Positions 4,817 through 64,000 of a DNA stretch of 64,000 nucleotides are shown here, in pieces. The translations under genes and the position numbers were made by a program. This stretch comes from Dechloromonas sp. H13 (GTDB lineage Bacteria; Pseudomonadota; Gammaproteobacteria; Burkholderiales; Rhodocyclaceae). The stretch covers positions 1 to 64,000 of the forward strand of contig NZ_SSXX01000005.1 of assembly GCF_009469615.1 (NCBI RefSeq). The letters run 5' to 3'. The notes beneath the pieces were generated by a model. The model was given only the letters and a program-made list of their open reading frames with translations. It was not told the DNA's origin and ran no database searches. Within the stretch, counting starts at the first letter, position 1. The number at the start of each line of letters is the position of its first letter.

Positions 4817-5332
4817 TTAACAACGCCCCGACTTGCTCTCGACGAGCAACGGCCACAGGTAGCTGAAGGCGTCGCCTTCGCACGACCTGGGACAGTCGTT
4901 GAAGGCGATCGTCACGGTGCTCCCCTGTTCCCACATGCGGACCGTGCAGCCGCTTTCCTGACGGTGCCTCAGCAGCGCCTGCGGCATCTTCTCGATCTGC
5001 TCGAATTCCCGCAGGCTGAAGCGACACGTGCCGTGTTCCTTCATCGTCACCTGGGCGTCGAAGGTCTGCACGCTGGCCTCCTTGACCAGCAGGTCGAGAC
5101 GCCGCACGGTGCCGACCGCATCGCGGGTCGAGCATTTCGCACGCACGTTGAGCGGACGGGTCGGCTGCGGCTTGATGTTGCGGTTCTTCAGATACTTGAG
5201 CGGCTGCGATTCGATCTTTTGCTCGGCGGTTGCGGTCGACGCCTCGCTGCGTGCCGATTCCGGCCCGCCCATTTCGGCGCAGCCGGCGGCGAGCAGGGGC
5301 AGCAGCAGCCAGAACGCCCGCATCGGTTTCAC
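4817..5332 (-). CDS. Small lipoprotein within the gat operon
   Basis: The product (about 171 residues) begins with a short basic stretch and the lipobox sequence LLPLLAAGC, so it should be lipidated and exported. The mature part has four or more cysteines, including [19 protein letters not shown] and DCPRSCEG, which suggests disulfides in the periplasm. The GTG at 5332 overlaps the gatA stop by 4 bp and has GGGA about 5 nt upstream; an ATG three codons later (5323) is the alternative. I do not recognise the family. Confidence 0.75.
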
Positions 5333-6786
5333 GCGATCCCGTCCGGCCGCCGCTGGTGCCAGTCGGTCGCCTGCTGGTAGCGGTGGGCGACGTTGAGCAA
5401 CTGCGCTTCGGCGAAATAGTTGCCGACCAGCTGCAGACCAACCGGCAGGCCGCCGGCGAAGCCACAGGGAATCGACATCCCCGGCAGGCCGGCCAGGTTG
5501 ACGGCGATCGTGTAGATATCGGAGAGGTACATCTGCACCGGGTCGGCCGCCTTCTCGCCGAGTTTGAAAGCGGTCGTCGGCGAGGTCGGCCCCATGATCA
5601 CGTCGCATGACTTGAAGGCTTCGACGAAGTCGTCGGCGATCAGGCGGCGGATGCGCTGCGCCTGCAAGTAATAGGCGTCGTAGTAGCCGTGCGACAGCAC
5701 GTAGGTGCCGATCAGGATGCGCCGCTTGACCTCGGCGCCGAACCCCTGGGCCCGGGTCTTCATGTACATGTCGTCGAGGCTGCCGTACTCGGGGGCGCGG
5801 TAGCCGTAGCGCACGCCGTCGAAGCGCGACAGGTTGGAACTTGCCTCGGCCGGCGCGATGACGTAGTAAGCCGGGACCGACAGGTGCGAGTTGGGCAGCG
5901 AGACCTCGACGGTCGTCGCGCCGAGCTTTTCGTATTCGGCAATGGCCGCCTGCACGGCGGCCATCACCCCGGCGTCGCAGCCGGCGCCGAAGAACTCCCT
6001 GGGCAGGCCGATGCGCAGGCCGGCCAGCGGCTTGTCCAGGTCGCGGGCGTAGTCCTCGACCGGGCGGTCGAGCGAGGTCGAGTCGCGCTCGTCGAAACCA
6101 GCCATGGTATTGAGCAGCAGCGCGCAATCCTCGGCACTGGCGGCCATCGGGCCGCCCTGGTCGAGCGAGGAGGCAAAGGCGATCATGCCGTAGCGCGAGA
6201 CGACGCCATAGGTCGGCTTGAGGCCGGTCAGGTTGCACAGCGCGGCCGGCTGGCGGATCGACCCACCGGTATCGGTGCCGGTCGCCGCCGGCGCCAGGCG
6301 CGCCGCCACCGCCGCGGCGGAACCGCCCGACGAGCCGCCGGGCACGCGGGCGGTATCCCACGGGTTCTTCACCGGGCCGAAGAACGAGGTCTCGTTCGAC
6401 GAACCCATGGCGAACTCGTCCATGTTGGTCTTGCCCAGCGAAACTAGGCCGGCTTCGGCGTGCATCCTGCGGATCACCGTCGCGTCGTAGGGCGCGACGA
6501 AATTGGCCAGCATCTTCGAGCCGCAGGTGGTCGTCCAGCCCTCGGCGCAGAAGATGTCCTTCTGGGCGATCGGGATGCCGGTCAGCGGCCCCGCCGTGCC
6601 GGCGGCGATGCGGGCGTCGGCGGCGCGGGCGGAATTCAGGCTTTTTTCGGGGTCGATCGTGACGAACGCGTTCAGCGCCGGATTCAGGCGCGCGATGCGT
6701 TCGAGAAAGAGCTGCGTCAGCTCGACGCTGGAAATCCGCTTCGCCGCCAGCGCCTGCGACAACTCCTTGAGGCTGGCGTTGATCAT
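5329..6786 (-). CDS. gatA: Aspartyl/glutamyl-tRNA amidotransferase subunit A
   Basis: The 485-residue amidase carries the Ser-cisSer-Lys triad: Lys in [10 protein letters not shown] (about residue 76), the glycine/serine-rich [14 protein letters not shown], and [12 protein letters not shown]. It releases ammonia from glutamine for the GatB reaction. Its start overlaps the gatC stop by 4 bp, and its stop overlaps the lipoprotein start. Length is standard. Confidence 0.97.
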
Positions 6787-7070
6787 TCGATCACCTTCGG
6801 CACGAGGTAGAGGCCGGCTTCGGTTTCCGGGGCGACGGCCTGGAATGCGGCGCGGCGATCGCCTTCGGTCACCGCGTCGGCGCGCAGGCGCTGGGCGACA
6901 TCCTGGGCGTGCGCCATCGGTTCGATGCCGCGGGTATCGACCGCCTGCATCTGCTCGATCAGCTGGAAGATGCCGTTGAGGTGGCCCTGCGTGGTCGTGG
7001 CTTCGGTTTCGCTGATCTCGATGCGGGCGAGATGGGCGATGCGCTGAACCTGTTCTAGTGATAGCGACAT
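6783..7070 (-). CDS. gatC: Aspartyl/glutamyl-tRNA amidotransferase subunit C
   Basis: The 95-residue protein starts [20 protein letters not shown], the typical GatC opening, and ends YLVPKVIE. It stabilises the GatA-GatB complex. The ATG at 7070 is preferred over a longer in-frame start because the extra residues (MHRKKSLLA) lie outside the family. It is divergent from mreB across about 100 bp that contain an inverted repeat. Confidence 0.95.
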
Positions 7071-7078
7071 GGCGAGCA

Positions 7079-7105
7079 AAGACTTTTTGCGGTGCACAAA
7101 GTCTT
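7079..7105. promoter_or_regulatory. Perfect 8-bp inverted repeat between gatC and mreB
   Basis: AAGACTTT (7079-7086) and AAAGTCTT (7098-7105) are exact reverse complements separated by 11 nt. The dyad abuts the gatC start and overlaps the -35 region of the candidate mreB promoter. It could be a protein operator or an RNA hairpin in the gatC leader. No regulator is known to me for it. Confidence 0.4.
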
Positions 7106-62315: not shown

Positions 62316-62330
62316 GCACCAAACAGGTGC
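62316..62330 (-). promoter_or_regulatory. NtrC-type enhancer site
   Basis: GCACC-AAACA-GGTGC matches the NtrC dyad GCACC-N5-GGTGC and is centred about 98 bp upstream of the predicted sigma54 start. A weaker overlapping dyad (GCACC-AAGGC-GGCGC) is at 62303-62317. Confidence 0.7.
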
Positions 62331-62422
62331 GGTTACACATTGTTACGCACCACGGGCGGGCGGTCTGACCAAAATGGGGCCGACCGGCGCTGTGATACAC
62401 TCGAAAGCCACGGAGGAACCCC

Positions 62423-62665
62423 ATGCTCGACCCGAAAACACTCGAAGATATCGGCAACAAGATGAGCTCCCTGCTCGCCAATTCGCCGGCCAAGGATTTT
62501 GAAAAAAATGCCAAGGCGGTCGTGAGCGGCCTGCTGGCCAAGCTCGATCTGGTCACCCGCGAGGAATTCGACATTCAGGCGCAGGTGCTGGCGCGCACCC
62601 GCGAGAAGCTGAAGGAACTCGAAGCCCGCGTCGAGGCGCTGGAAAAGGCCCGCGCGGGCCAGTAG
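62423..62665 (+). CDS. ubiK: Ubiquinone biosynthesis accessory factor UbiK
   Basis: The 80-residue protein starts MLDPKTLEDIGNKMSSLL and ends with a trimeric coiled-coil-type helix (EFDIQAQVLARTREKLKELEAR), as in YqiC/UbiK (BMFP family). UbiK helps the aerobic ubiquinone complex. It has GGAGG upstream and is followed by a YifB-type gene after 6 bp. Confidence 0.92.
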   Translation: MLDPKTLEDIGNKMSSLLANSPAKDFEKNAKAVVSGLLAKLDLVTREEFDIQAQVLARTREKLKELEARVEALEKARAGQ

Positions 62666-62671
62666 GCGGCC

Positions 62672-64000
62672 ATGGCGCTCGCCGTCGCGCACAGCCGGGG
62701 GCTGGACGGCCTGCAGGCGCCCCCGGTGCTGGTCGAAGCCCACCTGGCCAGCGGCCTGCCGGCGTTCACGCTGGTCGGCCTTCCCGATACCGAAGTCAAG
62801 GAAGCGCGTGACCGGGTGCGCGCCGCGATCGTCAATTCCGGCTTCGAATTCCCGCAGAAGCGCATCACCGTCAATCTGGCGCCGGCCGACCTGCCCAAGG
62901 AATCCGGGCGCTTCGACCTGCCGATCGCCCTCGGCATCCTGGCTGCCAGCGGCCAGATTCCGGCGCCGGCGCTGGATGCCTGCGAGTTTGCCGGCGAACT
63001 GTCGCTGTCCGGCGAACTGCGTCCGGTGCGCGGCGCGCTGGCCATGGTCCTGCAGTCGGCAGCCAACGGCAAGGCCTTCATCCTGCCCGAGGCCAGCGCC
63101 CGCGAAGCGGCGCTGACCGGCAGCGAGAACATCTACTCGGCGCGCTCCCTGCTCGAAGTGTGCGCTCACCTTGGCGGCCAGCAGCTGCTGCCGCGGCCGG
63201 CTGCGGTCGACTTCGAAAATCAGCCGGTTTTCGCCGACCTCGGCGAGGTACGCGGCCAGAGCCAGGCCAAGCGGGCGCTCGAGATCGCCGCCGCCGGCAA
63301 CCACTCGCTGCTGATGATCGGCCCGCCGGGTTCCGGCAAGTCGATGCTCGCCGCCCGCCTGCCCGGGCTGATGCCGGCGCTCGATGTCGAGGCGGCCAAG
63401 GCGTCGGCCGCCGTGCTGTCGCTGGTCGGGCAGTTCCGCCCCGAACGCTTCGGCCAGCGCCCCTATCGTGCACCGCACCATACGGCGTCGGCGGTCGCCC
63501 TGGTCGGCGGCGGCAACCCGCCGCGCCCCGGCGAGATCTCGCTGGCGCACCAGGGCGTCGTGTTCCTCGACGAACTGCCGGAATTCGATCGCAAGGTGCT
63601 CGAGACCCTGCGCGAGCCGCTCGAATCGGGGCGTATCCACATCGCCCGCGCCGCCCGCCATGCCGAGTTCCCGGCCGAATTCCAGCTGGTCGCGGCGATG
63701 AATCCCTGCCCCTGCGGCTTCAGCGGCCACAGCAACGGCAAGTGCCGGTGCACCCCGGACCAGATCGCCCGTTACCGCGGCAAGCTCTCCGGCCCCTTCC
63801 TCGACCGCATCGATCTGCTGATCGAAGTTCCCGCCCTGCCGGCCGAGGCGCTCGCCGGGAAGGGCGACGGCGAATCGTCGGCGACGGTACGCGGACGAGT
63901 AGTGGCCGCGCAGGCGCTGCAACGGGCGCGCCAGCAAAAGCCGAACGCCCGGCTCAGCGCCGCCGAGGTCGACGTCCATTGCATGCCCGACGCCGCCGGC
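62672..64000 (+). CDS. YifB family Mg chelatase-like AAA ATPase (partial, runs off the window)
   Basis: An open frame of 443 codons without stop reaches the window end. It starts MALAVAHSRGLDGLQAP and has the N-terminal Lon-protease-like fold, Walker A GPPGSGKSML, Walker B with ISLAHQGVVFLDELPEF and the MNPCPCGF zinc-like motif of YifB/ComM. ComM acts in branch migration during natural transformation in Vibrio and Acinetobacter. About 50-60 residues are missing by comparison with family length. Confidence 0.93.
   Translation, partial: MALAVAHSRGLDGLQAPPVLVEAHLASGLPAFTLVGLPDTEVKEARDRVRAAIVNSGFEFPQKRITVNLAPADLPKESGRFDLPIALGILAASGQIPAPALDACEFAGELSLSGELRPVRGALAMVLQSAANGKAFILPEASAREAALTGSENIYSARSLLEVCAHLGGQQLLPRPAAVDFENQPVFADLGEVRGQSQAKRALEIAAAGNHSLLMIGPPGSGKSMLAARLPGLMPALDVEAAKASAAVLSLVGQFRPERFGQRPYRAPHHTASAVALVGGGNPPRPGEISLAHQGVVFLDELPEFDRKVLETLREPLESGRIHIARAARHAEFPAEFQLVAAMNPCPCGFSGHSNGKCRCTPDQIARYRGKLSGPFLDRIDLLIEVPALPAEALAGKGDGESSATVRGRVVAAQALQRARQQKPNARLSAAEVDVHCMPDAAG

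Follow-up and report, generated by a model that had tools for sequence, protein, structure and literature searches.

The stated view in the excerpted text of a recent account (PMC12616744, 2025) is that the Neisseriaceae and the Pasteurellaceae are the sole families known to select their own DNA by short sequence signals. As described by Redfield et al. (excerpts of PMC1626085), the uptake signal sequence (USS) of the Pasteurellaceae consists of a 9-bp core and two downstream A/T segments at a spacing of about one helical turn; it exhibits no orientation bias, is preferentially located in noncoding DNA and is spaced more regularly than random. An interaction between A/T-tract and core bases is reported for H. 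influenzae in excerpts of PMC7811141. The current report deals with a recurring 12-bp word, GYTGCGGTCGAC, in the first 64,000 nucleotides of contig NZ_SSXX01000005.1 of Dechloromonas sp. H13 (hereafter the window), which a preliminary description had compared to DNA uptake sequences or, alternatively, to an architecture or methylation motif. The resemblance to uptake sequences is the best-supported of these readings, and we assign a probability of about 0.8 to the interpretation that a genus-wide DNA uptake signal sequence, which would work like a USS, has this word as its core. Among the papers listed by literature searches, whose coverage extended neither to preprints nor to most subscription journals, none described uptake sequences for Rhodocyclales, Dechloromonas or Azonexus.

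Build, enrichment and spread of the signal

The main sample for our analysis was 464 kb of the source genome (G000), about an eighth of the total, and consisted of the window and 400 kb of contig C6. Alignment of the 105 copies of TGCGGTCGAC in this sample revealed that the word makes up one end of a more extended signal with three components: the constant core CGGTC(G/A)AC, bases immediately upstream that are specific to the lineage (GYTG in G000) and, downstream, two A/T tracts. The first tract is softer and A-rich, and the second is sharp (A/T content of 96 to 98% at the three positions in its center) and is mostly followed by C or G. Flanks farther out are near background composition, which argues that the signal is not a copied element. 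Runs of three A/T bases (WWW) peak at starts +14 and +24 from the first C of CGGTCRAC and are at background levels between and beyond these positions; the tract centers lie ~15 and ~25 bases from that C, i.e. about one helical turn apart. Sites with three A/T bases at +24 to +26, counted from the first C of the core, are referred to here as tract-bearing.

In a substitution scan of the core, the full tract stood after CGGTCGAC at 86 of 196 sites in G000 and at 96 of 195 in the relatives G152 and G153 taken together; for CGGTCAAC the corresponding counts were 20 of 75 and 41 of 100. The remaining bases at the sixth core position were also partly tolerated, and changes at the other seven positions were accompanied by the tract in a few percent of cases or less, with the exception of rare variants (under 20 cases, or 54 cases) that reached 0.07 to 0.17. 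Tract-bearing sites in the 400 kb of C6 numbered 86 for CGGTCGAC and 20 for CGGTCAAC versus 26 summed over the 23 other single mismatches.

The genome of G000 contains 576 copies of GYTGCGGTCGAC (280 and 296 on the two strands) versus 6 of the reversed pattern. The contention of the preliminary description that codon preference does not explain the word was upheld by codon-preserving shuffles of the 423 genes called in the 464-kb sample, in which each gene's protein and codons were kept: the 72 coding copies observed compare with 10.0 +/- 2.5 (maximum 17) in 200 shuffles, an approximately seven-fold excess, and the core plus tract occurred 116 times in called genes versus 8.2 in the shuffles. 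These shuffles are conservative, since they retain the codons used by the copies themselves; global codon resampling gave an expectation of 8 coding copies. Most coding copies read xAVD, as had been noted for the window, or VDR, and they are not confined to VDRS or AAVD codons, since STA and further readings are present and 28 of the 90 copies in the 400-kb stretch lie outside called genes. Codon bias as the main cause was rejected by the shuffles in the 464 kb examined.

Coding status was assigned by our own gene caller, which misses some genes, including some pilin genes and the gene comM at the edge of the window. Noncoding DNA amounts to 13% of the 464-kb sample and holds 32 of the 105 copies (p = 3e-6, the comM copy being counted as coding). 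A check for strand skew, as had been proposed in the preliminary description, detected no bias toward either strand in the six stretches examined, which come from five genomes (p 0.48 to 1.0) and include some with a GC skew of ~0.06, and the late part of contig C6 carries copies on both strands. The coefficients of variation of spacing, as descriptive values, were 0.80 and 0.83. Signal gaps of more than 8 kb, 5 in the 400-kb stretch and 1 in the window, were not in excess over the ~8 estimated by hand for random placing in 400 kb.

Dialects were compared among six of the 76 genomes of the genus, picked by hand for contrast. With core and tract fixed, the upstream bases were GYTG in G000, CA (often TTCA) in G147, a weak AG in G152 and G153 and TGnYG in G155, such that the core is constant across the five carriers sampled while the bases before it differ by lineage. 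In the low-count relative G150, the tract was found at 0 of 43 CGGTCRAC sites, where 1.1 were expected. The palindromic CGGTCGACCG accounted for 17 of 138 tract-bearing sites in G000 and 25 of 73 in G147. Palindromic cores of this type, frequent in G147, make oppositely directed cores overlap.

In a set of 150 family genomes, strong enrichment of the exact word is confined to two members of one genus, G000 and G062 (293 copies in the latter); the other genomes, two of which also belong to that genus, contain at most 25 copies each. When CGGTCGAC is counted in combination with the A/T tract, 42 of the 76 genomes of the genus contain 100 copies or more (maximum 1,497), 29 contain no more than 60 and 5 fall between these values, and the genus sums are 25,861 core-plus-tract copies versus 902 for the reversed pattern; some low-count genomes still lie several-fold above the reversed pattern (e.g. 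G217, 55 versus 7). Outside the genus, the same combination did not exceed 32 copies per genome in 393 genomes of a 399-genome sample of the order, and the CGGTCRAC form with the tract did not exceed 23 in the 368 others of a 369-genome sample of the class. A slight excess over the reversed pattern was seen in certain outside genera, for example g80 (mostly 10 to 22 versus 0 to 6). For family members outside the genus, the counts cover 146 genomes for the exact word and only 7 for the dialect-free form, and a survey of this reach could miss a sister genus with another dialect and, everywhere, a signal with another core. The signal is limited, as found so far, to one genus, and nothing comparable is seen in any other genus of the order and class samples.

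By ispH, a neighboring conserved gene, the nearest named kin (identity up to 80%) belong largely to Dechloromonas and Azonexus, labeled as family Azonexaceae in the tree tool, and from these kin we infer that the genus is the Dechloromonas/Azonexus group. Loci of ~20 kb contained 5 signals in Dechloromonas sp. UBA6271, 4 in D. hortensis, 7 in Azonexus sp. R2A61, 6 of the CACGGTCGAC form in Azonexus sp. MAG.149, and 1 each in a D. aromatica bin and strain CZR5; none were found in the loci, about 20 kb each, of D. hankyongensis and A. hydrophilus. An ispH tree of the named kin, in which 13 of 17 inner branches are open, cannot tell a single gain from frequent loss. Small k-mer screens, which covered 13 to 60 kb per low-count genome, gave no clear other word.

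Copies of the signal in the window

A recount of the window yielded the 14 exact copies of GYTGCGGTCGAC that had been claimed, 9 on the + strand and 5 on the - strand. Thirteen of the positions were as originally given and one start required a correction by one base, to 56536 from 56537; the additional copy, GATGCGGTCGAC, is likewise present and starts at 12810 rather than 12811. Near copies at 138-149 (+ strand) and 8219-8230 (- strand) were both located, and the estimate of well below one copy in random DNA agrees with 100 dinucleotide shuffles of the window (mean 0.03, maximum 1). The A/T tracts downstream of the word, absent from the preliminary description, are found at +24 to +26 in 13 of the 15 copies of TGCGGTCGAC and at 24 of the 41 CGGTCRAC sites in the window.

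Signals of the form GTTGCGGTCGAC that include the exact word are located at 5229..5261 (+) and 19100..19132 (-), each with a downstream A/T tract, and at 32442..32474 (+) and 54865..54897 (+, noncoding), each with A/T tracts; the signal GATGCGGTCGAC with its A/T tract spans 12810..12842 (+). The form GCTGCGGTCGAC is present with the exact word and an A/T tract at 41807..41839 (-, noncoding) and 47440..47472 (-), with the exact word and two A/T tracts at 29589..29621 (+, noncoding) and 40753..40785 (+), and with the exact word and A/T tracts within comM at 63200..63232 (+). Another copy of this form with A/T tracts, at 53768..53800 (+), overlaps a CGGTCGACCG palindrome, with opposite-facing cores across 53753-53800. 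In two further copies of GCTGCGGTCGAC, at 36247..36279 (+, exact word) and 56536..56568 (+, exact word, noncoding), the tract is displaced by one base and fails the WWW test. The remaining two, at 26794..26826 and 52937..52969 (both -, exact word, VDRS frame), correspond to the copies at 26815 and 52958 that had been suspected of reflecting codon bias; both bear an A/T tract and are, on this basis, true members. Our gene calls agree with the earlier assignment of four copies (29589, 41828, 54865 and 56536) to noncoding DNA. The copy at 63200 is outside genes according to the gene caller, yet lies inside comM, which crosses the window edge.

Variants with an A/T tract on the + strand are GCTGCGGTCAAC at 138..170, GCTACGGTCGAC at 3788..3820, GGTGCGGTCAAC at 15136..15168, GGTCCGGTCGAC at 34466..34498, TGTCCGGTCGAC at 35780..35812 and GGCGCGGTCGAC at 26312..26344, the last with a palindromic core (CGGTCGACCG) and opposite-facing cores across 26297-26344; a weak variant with a tract, CAGCCGGTCAAC at 30631..30663 (+), may be due to chance. 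On the - strand, tract-bearing variants are AGCGCGGTCAAC at 15869..15901, TTTACGGTCGAC at 16221..16253, a second GGTGCGGTCAAC at 28450..28482 and CCGACGGTCAAC at 37824..37856. The gene at the right edge (62672..64000, +, with its 3' end outside the window) was correctly recognized in the preliminary description as comM/yifB: it matches TIGR00368 at 536 bits and encodes a Mg chelatase-like ATPase, which we take to be linked to competence.

Candidate receptors and competing explanations

The machinery detected in G000 includes seven pilin N-terminal matches (E 1), ComEC and a ComEA-type helix-hairpin-helix (HHH) match over the cut-off; across the genus, ComEC is matched in 71 and the ComEA-type HHH over the cut-off in 67 of the 76 genomes. 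Four of the G000 pilins are specified by one operon: a PilE-like pilin, a FimT-like pilin (GspH family), a PilV-like pilin, named by position, and PilW. The PilE-like pilin scores over the cut-off for ComP_DUS, a family that also includes other pilins. The FimT-like pilin weakly matches the PpdA model NF007800 (E 2e-9, far under the cut-off), which E. coli PpdA matches at 250 bits, and is 23% identical to E. coli PpdA over most of its length. PpdA/ComN is a predicted, unproven receptor of the Pasteurellaceae (excerpts of PMC12616744). Searches of solved structures with the FimT-like and PilE-like pilins gave general pilin matches only. Judging from these sequence matches, our top candidate for a receptor is the FimT/PpdA-type pilin (G000 C6:264890-265471) and the next is the PilE/ComP-type pilin just upstream.

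The minor pilin operon falls in one of the longest signal-free gaps, of 12 kb (G000 C6:261306-273377, L028), in which the GC content is lower (0.61) and several genes are unrecognized by the codon-based caller, as if this region were recently acquired or fast-evolving. PilE-like matches in G112, G161, G182, G202 and other genomes contain in-frame stop codons and may overrun gene ends. ComEC matches are truncated or split in G157, G169, G202, G181 and others, which may represent gene decay or assembly breaks. G179 and G218, both rated 100% complete, hold 566 and 259 signals and have no ComEA match over the family cut-off.

Because the features of the signal are largely those listed for the Pasteurellaceae USS, we infer an uptake mechanism by which the core would be bound by a type IV minor pilin located at the cell surface, the A/T tracts would ease bending or opening of the DNA as it is pulled in by the pilus, and biased uptake followed by recombination would fill the chromosome with copies through molecular drive. 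In our view the signal is probably an uptake sequence of independent origin, with such a pilin as its reader; the signal as such, its enrichment, spacing and dialects and its known taxonomic limits are direct observations.

Several results weigh against an uptake function. Copy number in the 76 genomes is graded and does not fall into two clean classes, and the competence genes fail to separate carriers from low-count genomes of the genus. A domain-spanning ComEC was found in 30 of 36 high-count (>=100) versus 14 of 19 low-count genomes (Fisher p = 0.48) in a comparison restricted to genomes of at least 90% completeness and excluding G162, where the gene meets a contig edge; other cuts gave p 0.25 to 0.74. 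Nine genomes are without a ComEA match over the cut-off, and 5 of them hold 259 to 712 copies. The FimT-like and PilE-like pilins are found in low-count genomes too, and the former was not detected at E 1e-5 in several high-count genomes (e.g. G153, G155, G156 and G160). In the window, the bare word occurs as 15 exact TGCGGTCGAC copies versus 33 single-mismatch copies, with 9.9 expected for both together, and a strict consensus emerges only once the tract is required, unlike the Haemophilus core. Closely spaced pairs are scarce: the 400-kb stretch has 4, of which two are overlapping palindromes, and the window has none. A literature search on natural competence in Dechloromonas, in which Azonexus and natural transformation were not searched as such, listed a single paper, concerned with rat gut bacteria, and nothing showing competence.

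No single pilin marks the carriers among the FimT-like and PilE-like searches of the 76 genomes or the pilin N-terminus matches listed for 22 chosen genomes. Loss of ComEC as the cause of low counts is not supported by the comparison given above. Copies may outlast lost competence, as was suggested by Redfield et al. for H. ducreyi (excerpts of PMC1626085).

The explanation that survives best beside an uptake signal is a chromosome-architecture site, at which an intracellular DNA-bending or segregation protein of the genus would bind the core and tracts and in this way bring about folding or sorting of the chromosome. The presence of hundreds of copies at fairly even intervals, the asymmetric core and the phased A/T tracts would suit a bending protein, and the missing link with competence genes fits such a site equally well. 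The lack of strand bias at GC skews up to 0.06 is unlike FtsK-orienting polar sequences (KOPS) and Chi, and bears on the strand-biased kinds of site only; these, the known Chi and KOPS words included, are disfavored. For a site indifferent to strand, the dialects and the low counts (<=60) in 29 of 76 congeners would be odd if it served a core chromosome function, and the known signals of such a layout are, in the excerpted literature, uptake sequences. We regard this explanation as unlikely.

The other half of the architecture or methylation alternative, a modification or restriction target whose context is extended by a modification enzyme or defence system, seems very improbable to us. It would draw on the GTCGAC palindrome within the core and on the palindromic CGGTCGACCG versions found in G000 and G147 in the proportions given above. 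The palindrome-breaking CGGTCAAC is also a tract-bearing member of the signal, at the frequencies found in the substitution scan, and a plain methylation target would neither need nor be expected to have A/T tracts at a distance of 12 to 27 bases. Restriction usually depletes its targets, and the enrichment seen here is contrary to that. Finally, the idea that the word is a by-product of codon or amino-acid usage, or that it is a mobile or regulatory repeat of dispersed type, can be dismissed as scarcely credible, despite the xAVD or VDR reading of the majority of coding copies, in view of the 10 and 8 copies given by the shuffles and global resampling versus 72 in the 464-kb sample and of the location of about 30% of copies outside called genes.

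Returning to the uptake signal, a more far-reaching and rather doubtful proposal is that the genus represents a third lineage with its own uptake signal, that its receptor is a FimT/PpdA-type minor pilin, in the same class as the receptor predicted for the Pasteurellaceae, and that the shared GCGGTC(R)A core and two-tract layout might reflect a common mode of DNA reading and bending by pilins of this class at the outer membrane. Dechloromonas and Azonexus are environmental bacteria. If true, a third case would imply at least three origins of the trait and its independence of mucosal habitats. Such a case would further provide a comparative handle on the role of the A/T tracts, the identity of the receptor and the origin and loss of dialects among closely related species, since one genus includes carriers, low-count relatives and several dialects.

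Comparison with known signals

KOPS, Chi and other chromosome words resemble the signal described here in being short, over-represented and distributed chromosome-wide. KOPS and Chi are strand-biased relative to replication, unlike the signal of this genus. The DNA uptake sequence (DUS) of the Neisseriaceae (GCCGTCTGAA and its dialects) is a closer parallel, in that it is short and over-represented and combines a constant inner core with lineage dialects (excerpts of PMC3630211); it differs in being continuous, in having no A/T tracts and in its unrelated sequence (excerpts of PMC12616744 and PMC1626085). The DUS has an inner CTG and is read by ComP, whereas the signal here is discontinuous and has no CTG core.

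The USS of the Pasteurellaceae, with its Hin type (AAGTGCGGT, H. influenzae) and Apl type (ACAAGCGGT, Actinobacillus pleuropneumoniae), is the nearest of the known systems. As far as the excerpted sources describe it, it shares with our signal a discontinuous build, a short GCGGT core (in most dialects here), two downstream A/T tracts at helical spacing, the use of both strands, a preference for noncoding DNA and dialects that alter the bases before the core; the Apl synthetic consensus contains GCGGTCAA, which is common to the GCGGTCAAC form here (excerpts of PMC1626085). As to differences, the core here extends to CGGTCRAC, the 9-bp cores AAGTGCGGT and ACAAGCGGT are not matched, the bases before CGG differ, and even the inner GCGG of the Pasteurellaceae USS is not universal, the G147 dialect having ACGG. 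Hin-type tracts, as excerpted, begin just after the core and are centered 12 apart, whereas those described here are centered at ~15 and ~25 bases, about 10 apart. Site density, given as close to 1 per kb for the Pasteurellaceae USS in the excerpts, is about 0.3 to 0.55 per kb in the carriers sampled, and the hosts are Betaproteobacteria (in the older naming) with GC-rich genomes. In its build the signal follows the Pasteurellaceae USS, and it belongs to neither the Hin nor the Apl type.

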